A stretch of DNA of 64,000 nucleotides, taken from positions 1-64,000 of the forward strand of contig JAISTB010000027.1 in NCBI GenBank assembly GCA_031272775.1, in the 5' to 3' direction. This document shows, one piece after another, positions 5,046 to 47,900 of the stretch. The notes under the pieces were generated by a model that saw nothing but the letters and a program-made list of their open reading frames with translations, had not been told where the DNA came from and did no database searches. How positions within the stretch are numbered: position 1 is the first letter of the stretch; the number at the start of each line of letters is the position of its first letter. This stretch comes from Fusobacteriaceae bacterium (GTDB lineage Bacteria; Fusobacteriota; Fusobacteriia; Fusobacteriales; Fusobacteriaceae). A program made the translations under genes and the position numbers.

Positions 5046-5483
5046 ATGAAGATAGAATCATATAGTATGAACGAATTAACAATTGGCCAAAGCGCGTCTA
5101 AAACCAAAGTATTCAGAGAAGAAGACGTTCTGGTATTTGCGGGTTTTACAGGAGACATGAATCCGGTACATATCAACGAAGAATTCGCAAAAACTACTAA
5201 ATTCGGGCGCAGGATAGTTCACGGTCCCTACGTATATACACTTGTCGGCAGCGTTTTGGGGCAGCAGCTTCCGGGGGGCGGGTCAGTTTATGTCAGTCAA
5301 ACGCTGAAATTCAAATTTCCGGTTTTTGTTGGGGATACAATCACCTGTACGCTGACGGTTACGGATAAAAATATAGAACGGAATCGTTTGACTTTGAACA
5401 CGCTTTTAACCAATCAAGATGGTGTTGTAGTAATCGAAGGCGAGGCTGTGACCATGCCCAGACTTGAAAAAAGCGATTCTTGA
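5046..5483 (+). CDS. MaoC-family (R)-specific enoyl-CoA hydratase-like protein
   Basis: This 145-residue protein has the hot-dog-fold MaoC/PhaJ hydratase signature: FTGDMNPVHINEEFA with the catalytic Asp and His, followed by GRRIVHGPY. Such enzymes hydrate trans-2-enoyl-CoA to (R)-3-hydroxyacyl-CoA. Length matches single-domain family members. It follows HMG-CoA reductase by 63 bases and precedes a crotonase by 32, so it is likely part of the same acyl-CoA pathway. From here on base composition is visibly more A+T-rich than in the preceding genes, which suggests that this part of the cluster has a different origin. The exact acyl-CoA substrate is unknown. Confidence 0.88.
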   Translation: MKIESYSMNELTIGQSASKTKVFREEDVLVFAGFTGDMNPVHINEEFAKTTKFGRRIVHGPYVYTLVGSVLGQQLPGGGSVYVSQTLKFKFPVFVGDTITCTLTVTDKNIERNRLTLNTLLTNQDGVVVIEGEAVTMPRLEKSDS

Positions 5484-5515: not shown

Positions 5516-6289
5516 ATGGCAGGTAAAGTCAATCTGGTTGTCGAAGGATTCATCGCGCTAATTACGATCAACAATCCTCCGATGAATCCCCTTGACATTG
5601 AAGTAATGGATGGAATTCGCAATTCTTTTGAGCATCTGTACCTGGAAGAGGACATCCGCACTGTAATAATCACCGGTAACGGCAAATCTTTTGTGGCCGG
5701 TGCGGATATCAAAGAGCTCAAGCGTTGGACGCCCGAATCTTCCATGATACTCAATGGAAAGGGACAGGCGCTGGTCAATTTGATAGAAAATTATCCTTCT
5801 CCGGTTATAGCCGCCATTAATGGATACGCATTGGGCGGTGGGCTGGAAATCGCTCTCGGTTGTGACATTCGATTGGCTTCCGAAAAAGCAAAGTTAGGTC
5901 TTCCTGAGGCCAAACTCGGTATTATCCCTGGTTACGGAGGGACAGCGCGCCTGTGCCGCGCTGTAGGAATCGGGCAGGCAAAAAAAATGATGTATACGGG
6001 TTCGCACATCACGGCCGATGAAGCGTTCGCTATCGGATTGGTGCAAGAAGTTCTTCCTTCCGAAAAGCTTTTAAGCCGCGCGATGGAAATTGCTCATGCG
6101 ATAGCTGAAAATGCTCCGATAGCAGTTCGCGCCATAAAACGTATCGTCAACATTTGTCGCAACAAATCTGTTGAAGAGAGCCTCGCGGCTGAACTTTATG
6201 CTGCTCGGGACTGCTATGCATCTGCAGATAGCGGGATAGGGATTGATGCCTTTATCAACAAAGAGATCCCCAAATTTCACGGTAACTAA
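5516..6289 (+). CDS. enoyl-CoA hydratase/isomerase (crotonase family)
   Basis: A 257-residue crotonase with the oxyanion-hole motifs SFVAGADIKEL (about residues 57-67) and ALGGGLEIALGCD (about 104-116) and the GLPEAKLGIIPGYGGT block with a glutamate in the active-site region. A GAGGAGG ribosome site precedes the ATG. Family members hydrate enoyl-CoAs or isomerise double bonds. Next to HMG-CoA reductase a 3-methylglutaconyl-CoA hydratase role is possible, but substrate cannot be told from the sequence. It is paired with the MaoC gene, so the two could act on opposite stereoisomers or on successive intermediates. Confidence 0.9.
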   Translation: MAGKVNLVVEGFIALITINNPPMNPLDIEVMDGIRNSFEHLYLEEDIRTVIITGNGKSFVAGADIKELKRWTPESSMILNGKGQALVNLIENYPSPVIAAINGYALGGGLEIALGCDIRLASEKAKLGLPEAKLGIIPGYGGTARLCRAVGIGQAKKMMYTGSHITADEAFAIGLVQEVLPSEKLLSRAMEIAHAIAENAPIAVRAIKRIVNICRNKSVEESLAAELYAARDCYASADSGIGIDAFINKEIPKFHGN

Positions 6290-29561: not shown

Positions 29562-29586
29562 AACGTGAGGAGATTGATATCATATA

Positions 29587-29755
29587 GCGCCGGATCTCCC
29601 GGTTGACCAAACAGCCGGACGAGATGACGAGGACTGGAATGATCGAAGCTTTCGGCGGGTATTCCAGAGGTGGTTACAACCGTTACCGACAAAACGGGGG
29701 AGCGATCCCCCGGACAAAGCAGTAACCGTAACAAATCTCCCGACACGGGAAAAAA
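29587..29755 (+). ncRNA. glmS ribozyme/riboswitch
   Basis: The 5' UTR of glmS carries the conserved ribozyme blocks in order: ATA|GCGCC with the expected cleavage point between 29586 and 29587, then GACGAGG (29626-29632), ATCGAAGCTTTCGGCGG (about 29641-29657), and the hairpin GGGGGAGCGATCCCCC followed by GGACAAAG. The class cleaves its own RNA when bound to glucosamine-6-phosphate, which triggers decay of the glmS message and so limits amino-sugar synthesis. The 3' boundary is approximate. Confidence 0.93.
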
Positions 29756-35647: not shown

Positions 35648-36793
35648 TCATTCCCCCAAAGCCTGCGCAAGATCGGCGATCAGATCCGCCTCGTGCTCGA
35701 TTCCCGCCGAGAGACGCAGGGTCGTCTCTAGGATCCCGTTTCGCTCCCTGTCCTCAGGCGGCACATCGGCGTGGGTCTGGGTCGAGGGGTAAGTGATCAG
35801 GGACTCGACGCCCCCGAGGCTTTCGGCAAAATGCAGCAATTTTACGCTTTTGAGAACACGGAGCGCCGTTTCCTTCGTGTCGGTCTGGAACGTCAGCATG
35901 CTCCCGAAGCCCCGGGCCTGCTTCAGATGGACTTCCGCTTCCGTGAAGTCCGGCAATCCCGGATAATAGACCTTTGTCACCCTCGGGTGGCCGCTCAAAA
36001 AGCGCGCGATGGCAAGCGCGTTTTTTTGGCTGGCTTCCATCCGCAAGCCCAGCGTCTTGACGCCGCGCAGAACAAGCCAGCTGTCAAAGGGCGCGAGACA
36101 GGAACCGATGGTTTTGCTCAAAAAGCGCAGGCGTTCGGCGAGTGCGGCGTCTTTCACAACGAGAAAGCCCGAGAGCGTGTCGTTGTGTCCGCCGAGGAAT
36201 TTCGTGCCGCTGTGCAAAACGATATCCGCCCCCAGATCCAGCGGATTCTGGAACCAGGGCGAGAGAAAGGTATTGTCCACCACAAAAAGGAGTTTGCGCT
36301 CCCGGGCGACATCCGCCGTCTTTTGGATATCGATGATGTTCATCATGGGGTTGGAGGGCGTTTCGATAAAAATAGCGGCGGTTTCCTGCCGGACGAGTCC
36401 CGCCAATTCTCCCGGCGCGCCGTTCCAGTACGTCACGGTCAACCCGTTTTTTTCGCTGATATGCTGAAAATAGCGAATCATGCCGCCGTAGAGATCGCAG
36501 GAACTGATGATGTGATCCCCGGGTTTCAGCAATTCCAGCATGACGGCAACCGCCGCCATGCCGCTGGAAAACGCCAGGGCGTCGGTCCCGTTTTCCAATG
36601 ACGCCACAACCCGCTCCAGTTGCTCACGGGTTGGGTTTTGCTGGCGGCTGTAGTCGTAGCCCGTGCTTTCCCCGACGCCCGGGTGGGCAAAGGTCGCCGT
36701 CTGGTAGATCGGGTAGCTGATGGCGCCGGTATTGTCGTATTTCAAGGTTTCATGGCGGTTATTGACGCACTTCGTCGCGAGATGGTCCGACAC
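35648..36793 (-). CDS. metI: MetI-type cystathionine gamma-synthase / O-acetylhomoserine thiolyase
   Basis: A 381-residue PLP enzyme of Cys/Met metabolism. The Schiff-base lysine is Lys198 in LHSGTKFLGGHND; the YSRQQNPT cofactor loop and AESLGGVESLITYPSTQTHAD block are typical of the MetI/MetB/MetC group. MetI-type enzymes join an activated homoserine with cysteine, sulfide or methanethiol; lyase activity is also possible. The only usable start is GTG at 36793, because TAA occurs a few codons upstream in frame. That GTG overlaps Cys codons of a small upstream ORF. The leader also holds a Met-rich peptide and a terminator. Divergent from the nif-like operon, it would be the methionine branch of the same sulfur system. 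Confidence 0.88.
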   Translation of the reverse strand: MSDHLATKCVNNRHETLKYDNTGAISYPIYQTATFAHPGVGESTGYDYSRQQNPTREQLERVVASLENGTDALAFSSGMAAVAVMLELLKPGDHIISSCDLYGGMIRYFQHISEKNGLTVTYWNGAPGELAGLVRQETAAIFIETPSNPMMNIIDIQKTADVARERKLLFVVDNTFLSPWFQNPLDLGADIVLHSGTKFLGGHNDTLSGFLVVKDAALAERLRFLSKTIGSCLAPFDSWLVLRGVKTLGLRMEASQKNALAIARFLSGHPRVTKVYYPGLPDFTEAEVHLKQARGFGSMLTFQTDTKETALRVLKSVKLLHFAESLGGVESLITYPSTQTHADVPPEDRERNGILETTLRLSAGIEHEADLIADLAQALGE

Positions 36794-36851
36794 AACAGCA
36801 CCCCCCGCGTTCGTTTTTCGATTTCTTTACCATTTTTTCTTTCATTTTCAT
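36759..36851 (-). CDS. Cys-containing upstream ORF overlapping the metI start
   Basis: The ATG at 36851 follows AAAGGAGGAAAC, the best ribosome site in this mRNA. It encodes 30 residues, MKMKEKMVKKSKNERGGCCC then VGPSRDEVRQ. Codons 18-20 are TGC TGT TGT. The metI start GTG (36793-36791) lies across codons 20 and 21 in another frame. The uORF ends 32 bases inside metI. A ribosome slowed at the Cys codons would sit on the metI start, so cysteine supply could set metI translation. The reading frame and ribosome site are seen; the control role is inferred. Confidence 0.6.
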   Translation of the reverse strand: MKMKEKMVKKSKNERGGCCCVGPSRDEVRQ

Positions 36852-36971: not shown

Positions 36972-37070
36972 TCATTTTCTCCGATGGTTCGCAATCAAAT
37001 AAGGGCGCATGGTCGCCATGCGCATCGCCATCATTGTCATTGTGAACATCAGGGAAAAGAGTATTGTCAT
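36972..37070 (-). CDS. methionine-rich leader peptide of metI
   Basis: A 32-codon ORF begins with ATG at 37070, eight bases after GGAG, about 26 bases after the predicted transcription start. It encodes MTILFSLMFTMTMMAMRMAT then MRPYLIANHRRK: eight Met codons, seven of them within codons 8-21. The codon run itself can fold into a perfect 8-pair hairpin, GCGCATGG-CGA-CCATGCGC (about 36996-37014). With a terminator just downstream and a methionine gene next, it has the layout of a ribosome-mediated attenuator that senses methionyl-tRNA. It is too short and skewed to be an ordinary protein. Confidence 0.78.
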   Translation of the reverse strand: MTILFSLMFTMTMMAMRMATMRPYLIANHRRK

Positions 37071-37131: not shown

Positions 37132-37269
37132 ATATATTTCATATATTTTATAAATATACCTGATATATGATTGTGATCTCATGGAATGTCCAGATTCTGA
37201 AAAACAACCTAAAATGCCTGGGTTTAAAGGCAGCAACACGATCTTGACCAAAAAAATAAAAAATATTTC

Positions 37270-37298
37270 TTGACAAAACGAAAAAGGAATGTTACAAT
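37270..37298 (+). promoter_or_regulatory. sigma-70-type promoter of the nif-like operon
   Basis: TTGACA (37270-37275), 17 bases, TACAAT (37293-37298). Predicted start near 37305, giving a leader of about 335 bases before the NifH-like gene. Confidence 0.82.
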
Positions 37299-37368
37299 GC
37301 CTGAAAATCCTGCTCGAAAGACGCAAGAATTTTCGCACAGTAGCGCGAAAAAGTCCGGAGGAAGAACT

Positions 37369-37515
37369 ATGATACGCAATTTTTCGGGAAAAGCCCCCTT
37401 TACTATGGCCATGTGTTGTCGCATGTGTTGTTGCAAAAACAACACTTTTTGTCATAGGGCAGACGGCGTTCCGAAAAATATGACGATGCGACCACGGCGG
37501 ATTCCTTCCGGTTAA
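37369..37515 (+). CDS. cysteine-rich leader peptide of the nif-like operon
   Basis: A 48-codon ORF starts with ATG at 37369 behind CCGGAGGAAGAACT. Its key part is codons 13-22, [10 protein letters not shown], with a sixth Cys at codon 28; the C-terminal part is basic (MRPRRIPSG). The TAA at 37513-37515 lies in the loop of a 9-pair hairpin, and an intrinsic terminator follows 40 bases later. Clustered Cys codons, a stop codon inside a hairpin, a competing pairing (ACGCT 37534-37538 with AGCGT 37556-37560) and a terminator are the parts of a ribosome-mediated attenuator. It should keep the operon off when cysteinyl-tRNA is plentiful. Confidence 0.8.
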
Positions 37516-37530
37516 TCAAAACGGAAGGAA
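37502..37530 (+). promoter_or_regulatory. hairpin enclosing the Cys-leader stop codon
   Basis: TTCCTTCCG (37502-37510) pairs perfectly with CGGAAGGAA (37522-37530). The 11-base loop contains the leader's TAA. There is no U-tract, so it is probably a regulatory (pause or switching) hairpin. The left arm is also partly complementary to the leader's own CCGGAGGAA ribosome site. Confidence 0.7.
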
Positions 37531-37554
37531 ATCACGCTGTTTCACAGGAATCAT

Positions 37555-37607
37555 AAGCGTTTGGAAGTCGAGGCGATTGAGGCCGAATCCAGGCGCTTTT
37601 TATTTTT
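37555..37607 (+). terminator. attenuator terminator before the NifH-like gene
   Basis: AAGCGTTTGGA (37555-37565) pairs with TCCAGGCGCTT (37588-37598), 11 pairs including two G-U, followed by TTTTTATTTTT. The 22-base loop is long. It ends 33 bases before the NifH-like start codon, after the Cys leader, so termination here would silence all eight genes. Confidence 0.8.
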
Positions 37608-37639
37608 CACCAATCCCATTCACACAAGGAGAATCGCAA

Positions 37640-38518
37640 ATGCCCAAAAAAATAAAGCAGATCGCCATTTACGGAAAAGGCGGCATCGGAAAATCCACGA
37701 CCACCAGCAATATTTCGGCGGCCCTCTCCCTCCTGGGGTACAAGGTCATGCAGTTCGGCTGTGACCCCAAGGCGGACAGCACCAACACGCTCAGAAAGGG
37801 GACCTACATTCCCACGGTCCTCGATACGCTCCGGGAAAAAGGAAAGGTCGATGTCCATGACGTCATTTACGAGGGCTTCAACGGCATCTACTGCGTCGAA
37901 GCGGGAGGACCGGCGCCGGGAGTCGGTTGCGCGGGGCGCGGCATCATCACGGCCGTGGAATTGTTCAAGCAACAGCGCGTCTTTGACGAACTGGACCTCG
38001 ACTTCGTCATTTACGACGTTTTGGGGGACGTGGTCTGCGGCGGCTTCGCGGTCCCCATTCGGGAAGGCATCGCGCAGCATGTGTTTACGGTCTCCAGCGG
38101 GGATTTTATGTCCATATACGCAAGCAACAATCTGTTCAAAGGCATCAAAAAATACAGCAACAGCGGCGGGGCGCTTCTCGGGGGAATTATCGCCAATTCC
38201 ATCAATGAAAGCTATTCACGGGAGATCATCGACGACTTTGCCGCGCGGACAAAGACGCAAATCGTCCAGTATGTGCCGCGCTCCATTACCGTGACCCAGG
38301 CGGAGCTCAAGGGCAGGACCGTCATCGAATCGGCCCCCGCCAGTGAGCAAGCCGGGATCTATCGGACCCTCGCGAAAAAAATCGCGGACCACGAGGAGAG
38401 CAAAACCCCTTCGCCCCTGGGCGTCGACGAACTCCGGCAGTGGGCCGCCTCCTGGAGCGACAAGTTGCTGCAAATACAGAATATTGTGGAAAACGAGGAG
38501 GGGGTGGCGGCCATATGA
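37640..38518 (+). CDS. NifH-like nitrogenase-type iron protein (group IV-like / MarH-like)
   Basis: A 292-residue ATP-dependent reductase homologue from the ATG at 37640, behind AAGGAG. The P-loop is [14 protein letters not shown] (11-24). Cys97 (CAGRGI) and Cys133 ([11 protein letters not shown]) are the ligands of the [4Fe-4S] cluster shared by the dimer; Arg100 is the residue ADP-ribosylated in some nitrogenases. Electrons would go to the NifDK-like proteins encoded downstream. The residues from 250 on differ from true NifH. With no nifE, nifN or nifV in view, dinitrogen fixation is unlikely; cysteine synthase, a sulfonate-type importer and a Cys leader point to sulfur. It overlaps the NifB gene by four bases. 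Confidence 0.9.
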
Positions 38519-39702
38519 GACTGGCTTTCGCTTCAAACGACGGGATTTTCGTATCACAACATTTCGGCCACGCGCAGCGGTTCGCCATCGTAGATATTGA
38601 TGAAACCGCCTATACCTGGCGATTTGTGGAAAAAAGGGAAAACATCAGTCCCTGCGTCATGGGGGAGCATGATCCGGAAAAATTGGAGCGGAGCGTTGCG
38701 CTTCTTTCGGACTGCAGGGTCTTGTTCGCGGCGAAAGTCGGCAATTACGCCAAATCGCGCCTGCAGCTGGAGGGAATCCAAGTGCTGGAAAAGCCCGGCG
38801 TCATCGAAGATCTGATCGCGGGATATCTGAACTATCTGAAAAGGCCCGTATGGGGAGGAATCAAGGGCGAAAAGCGAAGGGACGCGATCGAAGATCACCC
38901 CTGCTTTTCGGAAAAGGCCCACAACAAAAACGGACGGCTTCATTTGCCGGTCAGTCCCGCCTGCAACATCCAGTGCCGCTTTTGCACGAGAAAACAAAAC
39001 GTCACGGAACAAAGACCCGGGGTGGCGGCGGGAATCCTCGATCCTTCGGAAGCGGCCGATACGGTGAAAAGAGCTCTGGAACTCTGTCCTTCCATTACGG
39101 TCGTGGGAATCGCGGGGCCGGGCGATACGCTGGCGACGCCCCACGCCGTCGAGGCTTTCCGGCAGGTGCACGCGGCATATCCGGGCCTCATCAAGTGCCT
39201 GAGTACGAACGGGCTCGAGTTGCCGGGAAAGGCGAAAGAATTGTGGGATGTGGGCGTGAGGACCGTGACGGTTACCGTCAATGCCGTGGATCCTGAAATT
39301 TTAACGAAAATCGTCTCGTGGATCAAGGACGGCCGCGATCTGATCGGAGCCCAGCTGCAGGGGATCCGGGAATGCGCCGCTATGGGGATTGTCGTCAAGG
39401 TCAATACCGTCTTGATCCCCGGTGTGAACGATCATCATGTGGCGGATATCGCTCTGGTTGTAAAATCGGCGGGCGCAAGCAGACACAATATTCTCCCCTT
39501 GATTCCGCAGCATGAATTTGCCGGTTGGCCTGCGCCGACCTGTCAAGAGATCGAACTGGCGCGCCGGGAAGCGGGAGAATACCTTGAGCAGTTCCGACAC
39601 TGCAAACATTGCCGAGCCGACGCCTGCGGCATCCCGGGCGTCAGCGACCTTTCAAATGAGCTCTACCGGGGAAGGGAACTCGAAACCTTTTCCCACGGAT
39701 GA
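38515..39702 (+). CDS. NifX-NifB fusion, radical SAM cofactor-biosynthesis protein
   Basis: From the ATG at 38515 (ATGA overlap with the preceding stop) this is 395 residues. Residues 1-110 form a NifX/NafY-type domain ([24 protein letters not shown]). Residues about 125-395 are Nif[30 protein letters not shown] with the radical SAM cysteines 150, 154 and 157, GPGDTLATP, and the late [13 protein letters not shown]. NifB uses SAM to build the carbide-centred [8Fe-9S-C] precursor. Its presence in this operon says the NifDK-like enzyme carries a NifB-derived cluster. In many nitrogen fixers the NifX-like part is C-terminal or separate; here it is N-terminal. Confidence 0.92.
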
Positions 39703-39737: not shown

Positions 39738-40667
39738 ATGAATGTTGCACAGAGTTTAACGGATTTGATCGGCAATACGCCGCTGCTCAAACCCAACAAT
39801 TACCTCAAAGAGAAACAGCTTGACGCCGAAATCTTCTTGAAATTGGAGTATTTCAATCCGCTGGGCAGCGTCAAGGACCGCATCGCCTACGCCATGATCA
39901 GAGACGCCGAGGAAAGCGGAAAATTACAAAAAGGCGCCGTGATCATCGAGCCCACCAGCGGAAACACAGGGATCGGCATCGCCTTTGTGGCGGCGGCCCG
40001 CGGATACAAGGTCATCCTGACCATGCCCGACACCATGAGCGTCGAGCGCAGATCCCTCGTACAGGCCCTGGGCGCGGAAGTTGTCCTGACGCCGGGCGCA
40101 AAAGGCATGAGCGGGGCCGTGCGCCAGGCCGAGGCGTTGAACGCCCAAATCAAAGGGAGCGTTATTTTGCAGCAGTTTGAAAACCCTGCCAACCCGGCCG
40201 TCCATCATAAGACAACGGCGGAGGAAATCTGGCGGGACACCGAGGGGAAGGTCGATCTCTTTGTGGCGGGCGTCGGAACCGGCGGAACCGTGGCCGGCGT
40301 CGGGAAAAACCTCAAAGAAAAAAATCCCGACGTGAAAATCATCGCCGTGGAGCCCTTTGAATCGCCGGTCCTTTCTGGAGGACAGCCGGGTCCCCACAAG
40401 ATACAGGGCATCGGGGCCGGTTTTGTGCCGAAGGTCTATGACAAAGACATTGTTGACGAAGTCTATCAGGTCCGCTCCGAGGAAGCCATCGAAACCGCCA
40501 GGGATCTCGGCCGGATCGAGGGACTCCTTGTGGGGATTTCGTCGGGGGCGGCGACTTTTGCGGCGCTGACTCTGGCCAAACGGGAAGAAAACAGAGGAAA
40601 ACATATTGTGGCGATACTGCCGGACACAGGGGAACGTTACCTGTCCACGGTCCTGTATCAGCTGTAG
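39738..40667 (+). CDS. cysK: cysteine synthase (O-acetylserine sulfhydrylase)
   Basis: A 309-residue PLP enzyme that makes cysteine from O-acetylserine and sulfide. Lys46 in [10 protein letters not shown] binds [15 protein letters not shown] is the substrate loop, [10 protein letters not shown] the phosphate cup, and [11 protein letters not shown] the C-terminal site. GGAG precedes the ATG. It sits between the cofactor gene and the catalytic subunits of the nitrogenase-like enzyme, so it most likely uses sulfur released by that enzyme. Some family members accept homoserine esters or other thiols, so a direct use of methanethiol is possible but not shown. Confidence 0.94.
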
Positions 40668-40679
40668 GGGGAGGAGATC

Positions 40680-41999
40680 ATGTCAGATTTTGTCGAACGG
40701 CCGCGCAGCAGTTGTCCTTTGGGCGGGGCTCTTGCCACCCTCGCCAATCTGCCCGACATCGTGCCGATCATCCACGCGGCGGGAGGTTGCGGCGGTAACT
40801 TGACGGCGTCCATCGCTTTCGGCGCGGGCTACCTCGGGGACGGCTACTGTACGGGCAGAACATCGCCCACGACGGCCGTCAGTGAAACGGAAGTGGTTTT
40901 CGGCGGGAACGAGCGCCTGGAGGAACAGATCCGCACGACGCTTGAACTCATGGAGGGAAAGCTCTATGTGGTCGCCACGGGATGTATGACCGAAATGATC
41001 GGTGATGATACCGATGGCGTCGTCAGGGAATTTCAGGCGGAGGGAAAGCCAGTCGTCGCCATCAGTACGCCCAGTTTTCGCGGAGACAGCTACCACGGCT
41101 ATGAAATCGCCCTCGACGGGATTTTCAACAAATTTCTCCCGAAGGCGAAAAAGAAAAATCCAAAATTAGTCAACATTTTCGGCCTTGTGCCGGGCTACGA
41201 TCCTTTTTTCCGGGGGGACCTCGAGGAAATTGAGCGGCTTTTGACCGCGGTCGGGCTTTCGGTCAACACGTTTTTTACGCCCGGACAGACCTTTGAAAAT
41301 ATCGCCTCGGCCCCTTCGGCCGCACTCAACATCGTCTTTTCCAGAGTCTGGGGAAGGGATTTCGCCGGGAAATTTGAAGAAAAGCACGATACGCCTCATC
41401 TCATCGCGGATCTGCCCGTAGGTCCCGAAGCGACCGACGCGTTTCTGCTGCAAATTGCGGATAAATTAGGTCTTGATTTGCAAAAAGTCCAAAAGATCAT
41501 CGAAAAAGAAAACTCGACATTTTACGGATATTTTGAACGGGGCGCGGATATTTTCTGCGACGGCGATCTGAAGCATTACGCGGCTACGGTCACCAACGCC
41601 ACCTATGCCCTTCCTCTGACCCGCTTTCTGACCCGGGAGCTCGGCTGGGTCGTGACGGACAGCTTTGTCACCGACAAGCTTACGGATACGCAAAAAAGCG
41701 TATTGAACGACGGGGAATTCCCGCTGCAGTTTCTGCAGGGCGCCCAGGAAATCGCCCGGGCCCTGAACAACAATCATCCCAACGGCAGAGGGCAACGCTA
41801 TTTTGACGACCTGTCCCCGCTGTATATCCTCGGAAGTACGTTGGAAAAGCGAACAGCCGCGGCCCGTGGCGCCAGATCGTTATCATTGAGTTTTCCGGTA
41901 TATGATCGGTTTATCACGGACAGAGGCTACGCGGGATATCGGGGCGGATTACATCTTTTTGAGGATTTGGTCGGACAGATCATGTCCGTCAAGTCATAA
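40680..41999 (+). CDS. NifK-like beta subunit of a nitrogenase-like reductase
   Basis: A 439-residue member of the NifD/K/E/N family. Cys12 (SSCPLGGALA), Cys37 (AAGGCGGN) and Cys102 (ATGCMTEMIGDD) match the three beta-subunit ligands of a P-cluster. SETEVVFGGNERL equals the conserved TEDAAVFGG-type block before the third Cys, marking it as the K side. It is shorter than true NifK, which has an N-terminal extension. It would pair with the NifD-like protein next door in an alpha2beta2 enzyme. GGGGAGGAG precedes the start. Confidence 0.88.
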   Translation: MSDFVERPRSSCPLGGALATLANLPDIVPIIHAAGGCGGNLTASIAFGAGYLGDGYCTGRTSPTTAVSETEVVFGGNERLEEQIRTTLELMEGKLYVVATGCMTEMIGDDTDGVVREFQAEGKPVVAISTPSFRGDSYHGYEIALDGIFNKFLPKAKKKNPKLVNIFGLVPGYDPFFRGDLEEIERLLTAVGLSVNTFFTPGQTFENIASAPSAALNIVFSRVWGRDFAGKFEEKHDTPHLIADLPVGPEATDAFLLQIADKLGLDLQKVQKIIEKENSTFYGYFERGADIFCDGDLKHYAATVTNATYALPLTRFLTRELGWVVTDSFVTDKLTDTQKSVLNDGEFPLQFLQGAQEIARALNNNHPNGRGQRYFDDLSPLYILGSTLEKRTAAARGARSLSLSFPVYDRFITDRGYAGYRGGLHLFEDLVGQIMSVKS

Positions 42000-42011: not shown

Positions 42012-43529
42012 ATGGGAAATTATGACGCGAAAGTCCCCCCGATCCGGGAAGCGCGCCTGAAAGCGGGAGATACCTTCGGCGGCGCCCTTTGCGAGCTGAT
42101 GGACTGCTGTCGGGAAGGCTGCCTGATCCAGAAAAACAGAAGTTTCTGGCAAGCGGGCTCCTGTCAGATGAACGGCGCCATGATGATGGCGGGAACCTTG
42201 GAAAAAACCGTGATCGTGAATCACTCACCGGGCGGATGCAGCGCCCAGCTGCATTTTCTGTCTTTCCAGGCCGCAAAAGGCATGGGCAGACGGGGGAAAC
42301 CGAACCTTTCCGTACCATGGCTGTCCACAAACCTGACGGAATCGGACGTCATCGGCGGCGGAGAGAAAAAACTCCTGGAGACCATCGAATACGCCGACAA
42401 GACCTTTCGGCCCGAGCTGATTTTCGTCGTTCTCACCTGCGCCCCCAGCATCATCGGGGACGATCTGGACGAGGTGGTCCAGACGGCCCGGGGGAGGGTC
42501 AACGCGGAAATCGTGAGCCTGCATTGTCCGGGCTTCAAAAGTCGAATTTTCGCCTCGGCCTACGACACTTTCTATCACGGTTTGCTGAAGACGCTGTCTT
42601 TTTCGCCGAAACCCTGGCTTGATTACCGTCCCATTGATGAAAACGCCCCCGACGCCGAGCTGCGCTACGCGGCTTGGGCCTGGCAGAAAGCGCATACGGT
42701 CAATGTCTGGAACGCCACAAGCATCGGATCCGACGACGAAGCCGAAGTCGCAAGGCTCTTGGGGGCTTTGGGGCTCACGACGCGCATCTACGCCGAATAC
42801 GCCTCCAGGGACGAGTTGCGGAAAGTCTCGGAAGCGGCCCTCAATATCAGCATGTGCGACGTCCACGACGATTATATTCTGAAATATCTCGAAGAGGAAT
42901 TCGGTACGCCCTACGTCATCGCGGGGATGCCCATCGGATTCAGGCACACCCGGGAATGGCTTCTTGCCATAGCGGCGCATTTTCATCTGGAACGGCAGGC
43001 GGAAGCCCTGGCCGATTATGAGGAAAAAATCGCGAAGGACGCCATCGCTCCCTATGCCGAAAAAATCAAGGGAAAGCGCGTTTTGATCTACGGCGGCGCG
43101 GTCCGGGCGGGCGTGGAGGCCACGGTCATGGCCGAATTGGGCCTCGAAATCCTCGGTATCCGCACCTACCATTACGACGAGGGCGCCGACGCCGTTTTCA
43201 AGGACGTGGAGCGGCTTTCGCCGGAAGCCACGATTTCCGTGAGCACCCAGCTCTTTGAAATGACGCACCAGATCAAAACGTTGAAACCCGATCTCGTCCT
43301 CTCTCATAACGGCACTCAGGGCTATATGGCCAAGCTGGGCGTCGTATCGGTGCAACTTTTCGATATGGACAAAGTCTTCTTCGGTTATACGGGGATCTTT
43401 CAAATCCTGCGCCGCATCGTCTTTGAGTTTAAAAATACGTCCTACCGCGACAGGTTGTCGAAGCGCATTCGGCTGCCATACAAACAGGCTTATTTTGAAG
43501 GGAACACCTTTCAATATATCAAAAACTAA
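42012..43529 (+). CDS. NifD-like alpha subunit of a nitrogenase-like reductase
   Basis: A 505-residue catalytic-subunit homologue. Cys51 (AGSCQMNGAM), Cys76 (SPGGCSAQLHF) and Cys143 (LTCAPSIIGDD) match the alpha P-cluster ligands. Cys282 (NISMCDVHDDY) is in the place of the nitrogenase cysteine that holds the FeMo-cofactor. The nitrogenase histidine ligand region (YHGFDGF) is replaced by FFGYTGI, so the second cofactor anchor is missing or different. A Cys-rich stretch DCCREGC at 31-37 is extra. The pattern fits a NifB-cluster enzyme that is not a nitrogenase, such as methylthio-alkane reductase, which releases methanethiol from methylthio compounds. Substrate is inferred from neighbours. Confidence 0.88.
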   Translation: MGNYDAKVPPIREARLKAGDTFGGALCELMDCCREGCLIQKNRSFWQAGSCQMNGAMMMAGTLEKTVIVNHSPGGCSAQLHFLSFQAAKGMGRRGKPNLSVPWLSTNLTESDVIGGGEKKLLETIEYADKTFRPELIFVVLTCAPSIIGDDLDEVVQTARGRVNAEIVSLHCPGFKSRIFASAYDTFYHGLLKTLSFSPKPWLDYRPIDENAPDAELRYAAWAWQKAHTVNVWNATSIGSDDEAEVARLLGALGLTTRIYAEYASRDELRKVSEAALNISMCDVHDDYILKYLEEEFGTPYVIAGMPIGFRHTREWLLAIAAHFHLERQAEALADYEEKIAKDAIAPYAEKIKGKRVLIYGGAVRAGVEATVMAELGLEILGIRTYHYDEGADAVFKDVERLSPEATISVSTQLFEMTHQIKTLKPDLVLSHNGTQGYMAKLGVVSVQLFDMDKVFFGYTGIFQILRRIVFEFKNTSYRDRLSKRIRLPYKQAYFEGNTFQYIKN

Positions 43530-43552: not shown

Positions 43553-44572
43553 ATGCATGTATCAAGAAAAGGCATTTTCAAGTGGATTCTGACGTTCGTT
43601 TTGCTGTTTTCGCTTACGGTGACTTCCGTCATGGGAAATGCCGCGAAAAAAAATTGGGGCAAAATCGATATCGTCGGAAAGAGTGGATCCCTGTGCGCGT
43701 CCCCGACCTACATCGCCTATGAAAACGGCTATTTTGCCGAGGAAGGTTTTGACGTGACGCTGATCACGGCCGACGGAGAAACCCGCAAAGTGGGTTTGAA
43801 CAACGGCACATTGCCCCTCACCAACACGGATTTCCAGTTTTTGCCGCCTATTGAACAGGGCTTGAAATTCAGCGTTGTGGACGGCCTTCACTACGGTTGT
43901 ATCTCCATCGTGGTCCGGGGCGATTCGCCGATCAAAAGCGTGGCCGATCTAAAAGGAAAGAAAATCGGCGTCGACGAACTCGGCAGTTCTCCCTTCCAGG
44001 TGACCGCTTCTTGGCTGGCGTTGAACGATATCAACGTCAAGGGGGACGTGGAAATCGTGCCCTTCGGCTCCGACGGCAATCTGCAGATCCAGGCGCTGAA
44101 AAACGGCGAAATCGACGCGGCGGCCCTCTGGGATCCCTTCGGAACCGTGGCCGAACAGCGGGAAGGATTCAGAAAACTCTTCGATCTCGGAACCCATCCG
44201 GATTTTGCCGGAAAATACTGCTGCTTCCTTTTTGCCTCGGATAAAGTGCTCGAGGAGGAACCCGAAAAGATCGCGTCTCTTCTCCGGGCCTATCACAAGG
44301 CTCAGGATTGGATCGCGAAAAATCCCGAAGCGGCGGCGAAAATTGTCATCGACAAAAAATATGTTTCCACCGGCAACTATGAGTTGGCCACGACGCTGCT
44401 CAAGAGTTACCAGTACCCGACCTATGAGGATAGAAAGGCCGGAAAGACGACCCTTGAGCAGGACCTTGACTATTTTGTAACGATTCTCTCGAAGATCGGC
44501 TTCCTGAAGACGCAGGATCCCGGCGGATTCGCCAAGAAAATTTACCGGAAAGTGGACACGAGGGACTATTAA
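43553..44572 (+). CDS. SsuA/TauA/NMT1-type ABC substrate-binding protein
   Basis: A 339-residue exported binding protein with a Sec signal peptide (about 1-29, ending VMGNA). The mature part begins KNWGKIDIVGKSGSLCASPTY and has the NMT1/SsuA layout: EEGFDVTLITADG, DSPIKSVADLKGKKIGVDE and the late AALWDPFG motif. Relatives bind alkanesulfonates, taurine, nitrate or pyrimidine precursors. There is no lipobox, so it would be periplasmic, in keeping with an outer membrane. AAGGAGG precedes the start, and it follows the NifD-like gene by 23 bases. Probable role: supply of the organosulfur substrate. Confidence 0.88.
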   Translation: MHVSRKGIFKWILTFVLLFSLTVTSVMGNAAKKNWGKIDIVGKSGSLCASPTYIAYENGYFAEEGFDVTLITADGETRKVGLNNGTLPLTNTDFQFLPPIEQGLKFSVVDGLHYGCISIVVRGDSPIKSVADLKGKKIGVDELGSSPFQVTASWLALNDINVKGDVEIVPFGSDGNLQIQALKNGEIDAAALWDPFGTVAEQREGFRKLFDLGTHPDFAGKYCCFLFASDKVLEEEPEKIASLLRAYHKAQDWIAKNPEAAAKIVIDKKYVSTGNYELATTLLKSYQYPTYEDRKAGKTTLEQDLDYFVTILSKIGFLKTQDPGGFAKKIYRKVDTRDY

Positions 44573-44617
44573 ATTTGCGCGCGGAGACTTGTTTTATCTT
44601 ATTCGCAGAAATACCCT

Positions 44618-44650
44618 GTGCGTGGCGGCCCCTCCGGGGCCGCCACGCAC
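44618..44650 (+). repeat. 15-pair perfect hairpin between binding protein and permease genes
   Basis: GTGCGTGGCGGCCCC (44618-44632), loop TCC, GGGGCCGCCACGCAC (44636-44650). It is followed by AAAAAA, not T, so it is not a plus-strand intrinsic terminator. It may protect the 3' end of the binding-protein mRNA and so favour its excess over the membrane subunits. Confidence 0.7.
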
Positions 44651-44662
44651 AAAAAAGAACTT

Positions 44663-44695
44663 GGTCGGTCGCGGGCCGCAGGCCCGCCACCGACC
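44663..44695 (+). repeat. second long hairpin, same intergenic gap
   Basis: GGTCGGT-C-GCGGGCC (44663-44677), loop GCA, GGCCCGC-C-ACCGACC (44681-44695): 14 pairs with one C-C mismatch. It has no U-tract. Only 12 bases separate it from the first hairpin; the stems are different sequences. Confidence 0.7.
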
Positions 44696-44758
44696 CGGAA
44701 ACGGGACGGAATTTACTGCCTCCCTGTCGGAAATTAAAGACTTGAAAGAGGTTATGGC

Positions 44759-45730
44759 ATGAAAAAAAACAAAAATAGTTATCGTTTACGAATAGGCTTG
44801 ACCATTTTGGGTTTCGCGCTGGCGGAAATCACAAGTTTTGTCCTGCCGACGATACAGGAGGACGTGGACGACCGGGTCTACCGCGCCGTACTCGCGGGGC
44901 TCATCATATTTTTCGTCGCGAGCGGAATCCGTGCGGGATTTACACCCATGAGGCGGGCGCGATATGAAAAACGCGCCCCCTTTCGCTTTGTCCTCGGCCT
45001 GATCCTCGCGGCCTGGGATATTTTGAGCGCGAAAACAGGCATTTTTCCGCTCCCGTTTTTTCCGAGTCCGTCCAAAATCCTCTCGGTCTTTCTGACGGAC
45101 AGGGATTTTATGATCCAGAACTTGTTTTTCTCATTGAAACTCTATTTTTCGGGATTTTTGAGCGGCGTCCTCATGGGGGTGGGAACGGGAATTCTGATCG
45201 GCTGGTTCCCGAAAGTAAACTATTGGGTCATGCCTGTCATGCGGATTACCGGGGTTATCCCCGCCGTAGCCTGGATCCCGGTGGCCCTGACCATCTTCCG
45301 CTCCGGCTTTGTGACAGGCTCCTTTCTCATTGCCATGTGCGCGTGGTTTCCGATCGGATTCCAAACCGCAAGCGGCATGCAACGGACGGAAAAAATCTAT
45401 TTTGAGGCGGCAAAAACCATCGGCGGGGGGAGTCTGTACCAATTGTTCAACGTCGCGCTTCCCAACGCCATGCCCGCCGTGTTTACGGGAATCAGCACCG
45501 CCAACGGCCTCGCCTTCACGACGCTCGTCATCAGCGAAATGCTGGGGGCAAAAGGGGGGCTCGGGTATTATATCAACTGGGCCAAGGCCTGGGCGGAATA
45601 TTATAAAGTCTACGCGGCGATTATCGTAATGGCCGTCATGTTCTCCCTGATCTTAAAAGGGATAAATTTGATCAAAGATCGTGTACTCATTTGGCAAAAG
45701 GGATTGGTGAACGCAATCGATGAATCTTAA
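44759..45730 (+). CDS. SsuC/TauC-type ABC transporter permease
   Basis: A 323-residue inner-membrane permease. Residues about 11-60 add two hydrophobic segments before the usual six-span core, a longer N-terminus than standard SsuC. The coupling region reads FEAAKTIGGGSLYQLFNVALPNAMPAV, the EAA motif of this family. AAAGAGG precedes the start. It overlaps the ATPase gene by 11 bases. Together with the binding protein and ATPase it forms one importer of the nitrate/sulfonate/taurine class. Confidence 0.9.
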   Translation: MKKNKNSYRLRIGLTILGFALAEITSFVLPTIQEDVDDRVYRAVLAGLIIFFVASGIRAGFTPMRRARYEKRAPFRFVLGLILAAWDILSAKTGIFPLPFFPSPSKILSVFLTDRDFMIQNLFFSLKLYFSGFLSGVLMGVGTGILIGWFPKVNYWVMPVMRITGVIPAVAWIPVALTIFRSGFVTGSFLIAMCAWFPIGFQTASGMQRTEKIYFEAAKTIGGGSLYQLFNVALPNAMPAVFTGISTANGLAFTTLVISEMLGAKGGLGYYINWAKAWAEYYKVYAAIIVMAVMFSLILKGINLIKDRVLIWQKGLVNAIDES

Positions 45731-46499
45731 CGCAATTGACATTCGTAACGTGTCCCAGCGCTTTACCGGCGTCGCCGGAGAAGAAGTGAACGTCCTGCGG
45801 GACATCAATTTACAGATCCGGAAAGGGGAATTTCTCTCGATCATCGGCCCCAGCGGCTGCGGAAAAACGACGTTGCTGCGGCTGATCGCGGGCCTGGCTT
45901 CGCCCCTCGGCGGAACGCTCACGGAAGGAGACGCGCCCATTACGGGACCTTCGCCCGATCGCGGCTATGTCTTTCAGCAAAACGGGCTTTTTCCCTGGCT
46001 GACTGTGGAGAAAAACATCGCGGCGGGGCTCAAAGCGCGCAAAGTATACGCCAAAGAAAAGCGCCACGTTAAAAAATATATAGAATTAGTAGGTCTTTCA
46101 GGCTTTGAGGGAGCATACCCGCATCAGATCAGCGGCGGCATGGCGCAACGGGCGGCCATTGCCAGATCGCTCATCAACGAACCGACGGTTCTTCTGTTGG
46201 ACGAACCTCTGGGGGCCCTCGACAGCTTCACGCGAATGAATCTGCAGGAAGAATTGCTGCGCCTTTGGCGCGACAAAGGAAATACCATGATCATGGTCAC
46301 CCACGACATCGACGAAGCCGTTTATCTGAGCAATCGCATCGTGGTTATGACCCCGCGGCCGGGGCAAATCGCCAAAATCATCGACGTCCCCATGGGATAT
46401 CCGAGAAACCGGGCGTCTGCGGATTTTACGCGGCTGCGGACGCAAATCCTGACTTTTTTGAACTATGCCCACGAGACACAGCCGGAGTACGCGCTGTGA
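45720..46499 (+). CDS. SsuB/TauB-type ABC transporter ATPase
   Basis: A 259-residue ATPase. Walker A GPSGCGKTTLL, Q-loop VFQQNGLFPW, signature ISGGMAQRAAIARSL, Walker B LLLDEPLGALD and switch VTHDIDEAV are all intact. The C-terminal MTPRPGQIAKIIDV segment is typical of nitrate/sulfonate/taurine ATPases. It is the last gene of the operon and converges on tnaA with only 12 bases between; a small GAGGG/CCCTC hairpin lies at 46498-46511. Confidence 0.92.
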   Translation: MNLNAIDIRNVSQRFTGVAGEEVNVLRDINLQIRKGEFLSIIGPSGCGKTTLLRLIAGLASPLGGTLTEGDAPITGPSPDRGYVFQQNGLFPWLTVEKNIAAGLKARKVYAKEKRHVKKYIELVGLSGFEGAYPHQISGGMAQRAAIARSLINEPTVLLLDEPLGALDSFTRMNLQEELLRLWRDKGNTMIMVTHDIDEAVYLSNRIVVMTPRPGQIAKIIDVPMGYPRNRASADFTRLRTQILTFLNYAHETQPEYAL

Positions 46500-46511: not shown

Positions 46512-47900
46512 TCATTCGATCGGTTCCAGATGCGCCTGGAAATGTCTCAGAATAGGCGGTTCCCAAGTGATTTTGTACCCCCGCTTGATGGCGGCGGCTC
46601 TCTTTTTGATTTCGATCAGGGCGTCGGCGATAACGTCCATATGGGCCTGAGTATAGACCCGGCGGGGAATGGCTAGCCGACTGAATTCAAAGTCCGCGCG
46701 GAGCTGTTTTCCCGTATCGGGATCGTTTCCGAGCATATAGGAGCCGATTTCGCTCGTTCGGATCCCCGCTTCCTTGTAGAGCTCGACGCCCAGGGTCTGT
46801 CCCGGAAATTCATACCAGGGAATGTGGGGAAACAGTTTAGCCGCGTCCACAAATACGCCGTGACCGCCAGGGGGCGATTGATACTCAATTCCGGCGTCAT
46901 CGAGACGGGAGGCGAGATATTCGACCTGACCGATCCGGTATTTCAGAAAATCTTCGTCGAGTCCCTCGTAGAGGCCCGTGGCCAATGTCTCCAAATCCCT
47001 TCCGTTCAGCCCGCCGTAGGTATAAAAACCCTCGTAGGAAATGCAGGCGGCCTTGATCTTCAGGATCAGATCGGGATCGTCTTTCCGGATGCCGATCAAG
47101 CCGCCCATATTGACGATCGTATCTTTCTTGGCGGACATCGTAAAGGCGTCGGCGTAGCCGAAAAATTCCCGGACGATTTCCTTGATGCTTTTTTCCTGAT
47201 AACCGGCCTCGTCCCTTTTGATAAAATAGGCGTTTTCCGCGTACCGGGCGGCGTCGATATCGAGAAGAATGCGGTATTTTTTGCAGATTTCCGCGACTTC
47301 CCGCATATTCTTCATGGAGACGGGCTGCCCGCCGGCTGAATTATTCGTTATGGTCATAACGACGATCGCCACATTTTCAGGACCTTTTTCGAGGATGGTC
47401 TTCTCCAGAAGGGCCACGTCCATATTCCCTTTGAACGGCGCCCGCCTGGAGGGAATTTTTGCTTCCTGAACGACGCAGTCTATGCAGCGGCCTCCCGCCA
47501 GCTCCACATGGGCCCGGGTCGTATCGAAGAACATATTGGAGATCGCGAATTTCCCCTTGGTCAGCAGAACCGGGAACAGAACTTTTTCCGCGGCCCTCCC
47601 CTGATGCACAGGCTGGATATAGTCATAGCCGAAGATGTCCCTGGCGGCGTCCATCAGCCGAAAATAGCTGGACGCGCCGGCATAGGCCTCGTCACCCAGC
47701 ATGAGGGCCGACCATTGATGGGAACTCATGGCGTTTGTCCCCGAATCCGTCAAGAGGTCGATATATACGTCTTTTCCCTCGATATTGAACAAATTGTAAT
47801 GCGCTTTCCGGATTTTCTCTTCCCTTTCCTCCCGCGTCAGCATCTTGATGGGCTCCACCATTTTGATCCGAAACGGCTCAGCCACGTATTTTCTTGCCAT
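46512..47900 (-). CDS. tnaA: tryptophanase
   Basis: A 462-residue PLP beta-eliminating lyase that splits tryptophan to indole, pyruvate and ammonia. MSAKKD (Lys259) holds the cofactor. It must be told from tyrosine phenol-lyase: [11 protein letters not shown] has Ile where tyrosine phenol-lyase has its substrate-binding arginine, and the C-terminal ILRHFQAHL keeps the tryptophanase-specific histidine, so tryptophanase is favoured. HQGRAAE replaces the common HQGRGAE. AAAGGAGG precedes the ATG. No TnaC-like leader with Trp codons is present. Besides Trp, such enzymes attack cysteine and serine, so some link to sulfur metabolism is possible. Confidence 0.9.

Follow-up and report, generated by a model that had tools for sequence, protein, structure and literature searches.

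The region analysed, here called the window, is a stretch of 64,000 nucleotides from a Fusobacteriaceae bacterium whose assembly is 2.09 Mb long. An operon of rightwards-transcribed (+) genes starts at 37640 and comprises a NifH-like reductase gene (37640–38518; TIGR01287, PF00142), a fused NifX/NifB-like radical SAM gene (38515–39702; TIGR01290, PF04055, PF02579), a cysteine synthase gene, cysK (39738–40667; TIGR01139 above cut-off), genes for a nitrogenase-like K/E-type subunit (40680–41999) and a D-type subunit (42012–43529), and SsuA/SsuC/SsuB-type ABC transporter genes (at 43553, 44759 and 45720, spanning 43553–46499), with similar neighbours in homologous loci (L034, L039 and L041). Upstream lies a divergent leftwards-transcribed gene (35648–36793, -) coding for a cystathionine gamma-synthase/lyase-type enzyme. 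Elsewhere, the window contains an ordinary glmS ribozyme/riboswitch (29575–29737, +; Rfam RF00234, 76 bits) and, convergent with the operon, a gene (46512–47900, -) with a likeness by eye to tryptophanase/tyrosine phenol-lyase. Below, G000 denotes the window's genome, G050 and G051 are other Fusobacteriota, G051 being a congener, and L-numbers are loci, mostly from MAGs.

The nitrogenase-like character of the operon, proposed in a sequence-only reading of the same DNA, stands. That reading knew of no such leader on a nif-like operon, but control by cysteine is to be expected here, since the best solved relatives of the large subunits are the MarDK complex and not enzymes of nitrogen fixation. 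Among solved chains, both subunits are nearest to 9FMG/9D9U (E 4e-64 and 2e-55; next best 5e-31 and 7e-25), with nitrogenase, DPOR and NifEN all more distant than MarDK; 9FMG/9D9U is a methylthio-alkane reductase (PMC12552129), and in R. capsulatus a similar gene set reduces isethionate (PMC11423573). The operon thus most likely salvages the sulfur of organosulfur compounds and produces cysteine. Feedback by cysteine makes sense here because the MarDK-like enzyme adjoins cysteine synthase and an ABC transporter of the sulfonate type.

The operon is preceded by a leader with several recognizable parts, all on the forward strand. A sigma-70-type promoter, TTGACA-17-TACAAT (37270–37298; 11 of 12 matches), has its TTGACA and -10 region inside a conserved block in the alignment of the three Fusobacteriota genomes. 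It is followed by a Shine-Dalgarno sequence, GGAGGA (37357–37362), of a type that likewise precedes the leader ORFs of L039 and L187, and by a 48-codon leader peptide ORF (37369–37515) with six Cys codons (37414–37419, 37426–37434 and 37450–37452). Homologous leaders are present in G050, G051, L036, L039, L041 and L187. Downstream, the leader stop codon (37513–37515) sits in the loop of a perfect 9-bp hairpin (37502–37530; arms 37502–37510/37522–37530), and an intrinsic terminator (37555–37607; arms 37555–37565/37588–37598, U-tract 37599–37607) is conserved in G050 and G051, with related forms in L036, L039, L041, L042 and L187. The near-consensus promoter, the Cys-rich ORF with its good ribosome site, the stop codon within the hairpin loop and the terminator had each been picked out in the sequence-only reading, and all four are borne out.

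Cysteine clusters of this kind are rare. In these loci, a small ORF with at least four Cys in eight residues is met about 0.007 times per 350 strand-bases, and five Cys in eight is reached by only 5 of 22,817 small ORFs, four of which lead sulfur operons. Of the other Cys-cluster matches in G000, G050 and G051, those inspected lack a leader-like setting, apart from the ones reported here; CCRRCC in L174 and an ORF in L110 have a leader-like look but lie on coding sequence.

The leader was compared with the DNA upstream of nifH in homologous operons, where available. A Cys-codon ORF is present in seven of eight terminator-bearing leaders (G000, G050, G051, L036, L039, L041 and L187) and in none of ten operons without the terminator (L038, L040, L045, L049, L053, L055, L188, L189, L190 and L191), an association with a P value of 0.00025, in which independence is overstated as the three Fusobacteriota rows are close relatives. 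The exception is L042, where a homologous terminator, GCGTTTGGATGTCG...CGTCCAAACAC followed by TTTTTT, is found (5690–5930) with no Cys ORF in the leader. The number of Cys codons per leader ranges from two to nine, with only two in L187. The peptides (MLIISLLKAVCCMCCSMCCCKNDTFFRSYYRHSENMYG in G051, ...GCCKSRCADVMSGRMCCRMCPHVSGACCHVCGSAFRRP in L036, MRRFSLRTIGFRMSAMCCCINSSCCRACKPAVRRLNR in L039, MWFFGKCLTGVKNVNECCCCSICCCMRISTLEGLIA in L041, MYAITLLTTQYLNPALCRCRRVFGLP in L187, and 44 residues in G050) cannot be aligned between lineages except at the Cys run, and even G000 and G050 differ in leader length and Cys number although their neighbouring cystathionine enzymes are 97% identical. The Cys codon cluster and the terminator are therefore kept while the remaining codons drift, as had been anticipated for a leader that acts through its Cys codons; the stop-codon hairpin, expected to be conserved with them, is found only in G000 and G050 and is absent from G051.

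This pattern bears on whether the ORF codes for a functional Cys-rich small protein, such as a metal-binding or redox protein or a RiPP-type precursor acted on by the adjacent radical SAM protein, next to an incidental terminator. The position of a Cys-rich small ORF close to a radical SAM gene would suit such a product, but the peptide is unalignable across lineages save for the Cys run, it varies in length and Cys number between G000 and G050, and the radical SAM protein is a NifB-like enzyme fused to NifX, of the cofactor-assembly type; the precursor reading was rejected for want of any peptide conservation. The DNA itself also argues against a selected protein product. G051 retains CGGCNUUCNGAA and AAGCGUUUGGAAGUCGA although the intervening codons are changed and the frame is shifted, so that CGGCNTTCNGAAAA is read as GGC GTT CCG AAA in the window and as CGG CAT TCT GAA in G051; since this DNA, which includes the segment we call region 2, is kept in another frame, selection acts on the RNA. 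We consider a functional small protein highly improbable, and favour a leader peptide whose translation controls the RNA downstream.

The RNA elements consistent with such control are arranged as follows. Region 1 (37377–37390) pairs with region 2 (CGGCGUUCCGAA; 37464–37475) in the minimum-energy fold of the whole leader without a ribosome, a leader that folds better than all 100 of its dinucleotide shuffles (z -3.9). Between them, a hairpin, GTGTTGTTGCAAAAACAACAC (37425–37445), contains Cys codons and is followed by a U-run; it is kept in G051, where a U-A pair has become U-G, and may be an RNA polymerase pause hairpin. Region 2 is the 5′ strand of the predicted antiterminator, its conserved RNA lying in the shifted frame of G051, and its partner is region 3 (UUUGGAAGUCG; 37560–37570), which overlaps the terminator 5′ arm; in the window, 37464–37467 and 37469–37475 pair with 37560–37570. 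When a ribosome is halted on the last Cys codon, region 2 begins 2 nt past it, and the antiterminator starts 0–2 nt past the stalled ribosome in the window, G050, L036, L039 and L041.

To follow the dependence of these folds on translation, the RNA downstream of the ribosome was folded for each ribosome position, ending just before the terminator 3′ arm, with ribosome footprints of 9, 12 and 15 nt, which give agreeing results. For a ribosome on the Cys codons, the predicted probability that an upstream strand traps the 5′ arm is 0.54 in the window, 0.54 in G050, 0.63 in G051, 0.89 in L036, 0.77 in L039 and 0.86 in L041. Two to ten codons after the last Cys codon it is 0.04, 0.09, about 0.2, 0.02, 0.16 and 0.33, respectively, and in L187 trapping likewise falls from 0.73 to about 0.34; once the ribosome has reached the stop codon, the values are 0.00–0.36. 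The effect is reached by 18 of 200 dinucleotide shuffles for the window, 35 of 200 for G051, 18 of 200 for L036, none of 200 for L039, 1 of 200 for L041 and 15 of 200 for L187, so that single leaders range from weak to strong; combined over these six leaders, with G050 left out, P is about 1e-4. At full thermodynamic equilibrium the terminator prevails for almost every ribosome position (P mostly >0.8), the exceptions being L036 and the last three Cys codons of L041, and the switch must therefore rely on co-transcriptional order, as in known attenuators.

A different alternative pairing, the short complement 37534–37538/37556–37560, had been put forward in the sequence-only reading as the competitor of the terminator. 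The five complementary bases are present, but they fail as a working antiterminator: the pairing is restricted to G000 and G050 and absent in G051, it gives a trapped fraction of 0.11 with the ribosome at the stop codon, and a ribosome there would free that strand instead of blocking it, the reverse of what is needed. The folding and the comparison of leaders instead support 37464–37475/37560–37570 as the working antiterminator. The stop-codon hairpin and the 5-bp pairing are outside the conserved core, and are at most local refinements.

A ribosome stalling anywhere upstream of region 2 is predicted to cause antitermination, and the leader could on that account respond to general translation speed, as attenuators of the antibiotic or stress type do, rather than to cysteine. 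Against this, the otherwise unrelated peptides share Cys, right before region 2, and the operon encodes cysteine synthase along with a sulfonate-type importer; we give a general sensor scarcely any credence, and take cysteine to be the probable signal.

Conservation of the terminator itself raises another alternative, namely that its arm belongs to a riboswitch or a protein-binding element and that the Cys ORF only sets a basal level. The 5′ arm, GCGUUUGGANGYCG, is conserved beyond a terminator's needs, even in L042 where there is no Cys ORF. Searches of Rfam, T-box and SAM riboswitch families included, give no family match for the leader, whether the gathering or a relaxed threshold is applied. 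In L041 and L187, which have a different arm, region 2 has changed correspondingly. The arm of L041 is GCGCCCUGG where others have GCGUUUGGA, and region 2 matches it as AGGGGCUU, giving an antiterminator pair, AGGGGCUU:AAGCGCCCU, made of different bases from those of other lineages. A ligand- or protein-binding element is thus very unlikely; under attenuation, the arm would be conserved because it is paired doubly, with region 2 and with region 4.

The leader-bearing hosts are Fusobacteriota (G000, G050 and G051) and several Bacillota families (the L036, L039, L041 and L187 MAGs). In a tree of NifE-like proteins, the operons with a leader all group in a single supported clade (95/95), which mixes Fusobacteriota, several Bacillota families and Spirochaetota; no leader was found in Treponema (L038, L040) or in L043-type relatives of the same clade. 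The simplest reading of these sequences is that a single ancestral leader moved together with the operon and later disappeared from some members; independent gains are possible. The G+C content of the window is 0.52, compared with 0.36–0.37 for L032/L033 of G051, though both assemblies are placed in one genus. Those homologous-locus MAGs that share one style of isolate code are presumably insect-gut genomes.

AT-rich palindromes of the CATATATG/ATAGTAT type are present upstream of nifH in L036, L039, L045 and L053, and in the window at 37139–37168. They sit at promoters or just before nifH, whether a leader is present or not, and are possibly the operator of a regulator. A DNA-binding regulator acting at such sequences near promoters could then be the main control, with the leader a relic, and the leaderless homologous operons do keep a promoter with AT-rich palindromes adjoining the start codon. 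A relic is nevertheless hard to reconcile with leader elements that are conserved across phyla, and we think it most improbable; both layers may act together.

We conclude, with a probability of roughly 0.85, that the leader is a ribosome-mediated transcription attenuator sensing charged tRNA-Cys, as the sequence-only reading had proposed; the conserved Cys cluster and terminator and the modelled folds support it. The sequences show the parts and how far they are conserved, and the predicted folds change with the place of the ribosome; from these we infer stalling, termination, read-through and the cysteine signal as follows. Transcription would begin just past the promoter (37270–37298), with a ribosome translating the leader ORF behind RNA polymerase. 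When Cys-tRNA is scarce, the ribosome would stall on the Cys codons (37414–37452) and leave region 2 (37464–37475) free to pair with 37560–37570 in the terminator 5′ arm, so that polymerase would read into the nifH-like/nifXB/cysK/nifE-like/nifD-like/ABC operon. When cysteine is plentiful, the ribosome would pass region 2 and reach the stop codon, the antiterminator would be lost, and the terminator (37555–37607) would halt transcription. Without a ribosome, region 1 would hold region 2 and the terminator would form too. If the operon scavenges sulfur and makes cysteine, attenuation would be feedback by its product.

Further small ORFs are found near sulfur genes in these genomes. A Met-rich leader ORF with a Shine-Dalgarno sequence, MTILFSLMFTMTMMAMRMATMRPYLIANHRRK (36972–37070, -), heads the divergent cystathionine-enzyme gene in the window and likewise in G050; it is the most Met-dense of the 22,817 small ORFs examined, and is followed by a strong intrinsic terminator (36908–36876, -). 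Its fold switch is partial, and when footprints of 12 and 15 nt are used it lacks robustness for a ribosome at the stop codon. In G051, a mixed Met/Cys leader, MILLFLGIGICCCMMHSCMMCTCMNMF... (full peptide MILLFLGIGICCCMMHSCMMCTCMNMFHIFLYRQNPKKKLEKGFYRTAPM), is present at L094 598–750 with a terminator at 817–855, and this region aligns with the window's Met leader region at promoter and terminator. Downstream of it are a DapA-family gene, metN, metI, metQ, and genes for an amidohydrolase and a cystathionine enzyme, then cysK and a second nif-like pair. Ribosome-position folding of this leader predicts a switch, in which trapping of the 5′ arm (0.58) lasts to about codon 38 and the arm is free (0.01–0.10) from codon 40. 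No Cys or Met leader was seen at orthologues of the cystathionine enzyme elsewhere in the family, in genera other than this one.

A second small ORF (e.g. GGGAGGTGTTGTTGTG) has its Cys codons, TGY-TGT-TGT, in the spacer that separates the Shine-Dalgarno sequence of the cystathionine-enzyme gene from its start codon, and overlaps that start in another frame. It is located at 36759–36851 (-) in the window, at 5777–5875 in L094 and near 5270 on the minus strand in L164, is kept in G000, G050 and G051, and possibly provides translational control by cysteine. The chances seem to us even that a set of leader-peptide attenuators runs sulfur metabolism in these bacteria, with a Cys-only leader on the nif-like operon, a Met-only leader on the cystathionine gene, and a Met+Cys leader on the metNIQ/cystathionine/cysK/nif-like operon. 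The Met and Met/Cys leaders suggest a means of controlling sulfur amino acids that needs neither SAM riboswitches nor T-boxes. We know of no earlier attenuator reading both sulfur amino acids, nor of any Met-tRNA attenuator; if true, the Met+Cys leader would be the first two-sulfur-amino-acid attenuator, and the Met leader the first Met-tRNA attenuator.

The leader of the nif-like operon would provide a concrete signal, the supply of cysteine, for the regulation of nitrogenase-like enzymes of a class that is widespread but little understood, and the regulation alone argues that this enzyme clade feeds cysteine synthesis. It would also extend classical cysteine attenuation to Fusobacteriota and several Bacillota families, apparently having moved with the operon between phyla.

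The operon resembles the Mar (PMC12552129) and Isr (PMC11423573) operons in its nitrogenase-like H/D/K genes and NifB-like radical SAM gene, and the Isr operon also in having ssuCAB nearby, but differs from both in having cysK inside and NifX fused to NifB; neither paper mentions a leader or attenuator. Our search, which covered largely openly accessible papers, returned no paper joining nitrogenase, transcription attenuation and a leader peptide.

The elements of a classical attenuator are present, with clustered control codons in a leader ORF in seven leaders, an intrinsic terminator ahead of the first gene in eight, and a predicted competition between antiterminator and terminator set by ribosome position. 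The trp, his and leu attenuators (mechanism: PMC1183508) have the same logic, with control codons and 1:2, 2:3 and 3:4 pairings, and differ in the amino acid sensed and the operon controlled. Poly-Cys leader ORFs are described ahead of cys operons of Mycobacterium and Propionibacterium and of cbs in Bifidobacterium (PMC1262725), and the actinobacterial examples are treated by Canestrari et al. 2020, as cited in PMC13236596. These share a short leader ORF with a Cys-codon run ahead of sulfur genes, but are described as lacking conserved terminator hairpins and as having the Cys run near the stop codon, whereas the leaders reported here have an intrinsic terminator and a conserved antiterminator.

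Another close parallel by description is uORFC-8-2, upstream of cysS in Rhodobacterales, a Cys-codon leader with an intrinsic terminator predicted to act by Cys-tRNA attenuation (PMC8632094). In both, an intrinsic terminator lies downstream of a uORF that has tandem Cys codons, and the two would work alike, but uORFC-8-2 controls cysteinyl-tRNA synthetase in Alphaproteobacteria and has two conserved Cys codons, whereas the leaders described here have two to nine and precede a nitrogenase-like sulfur operon in Fusobacteriota and Bacillota; with a nifH-like downstream gene and these hosts, the window's leader falls outside uORFC-8-2. Cys leaders are thus already predicted or known elsewhere, and it is the type of operon and the phyla that are new here.
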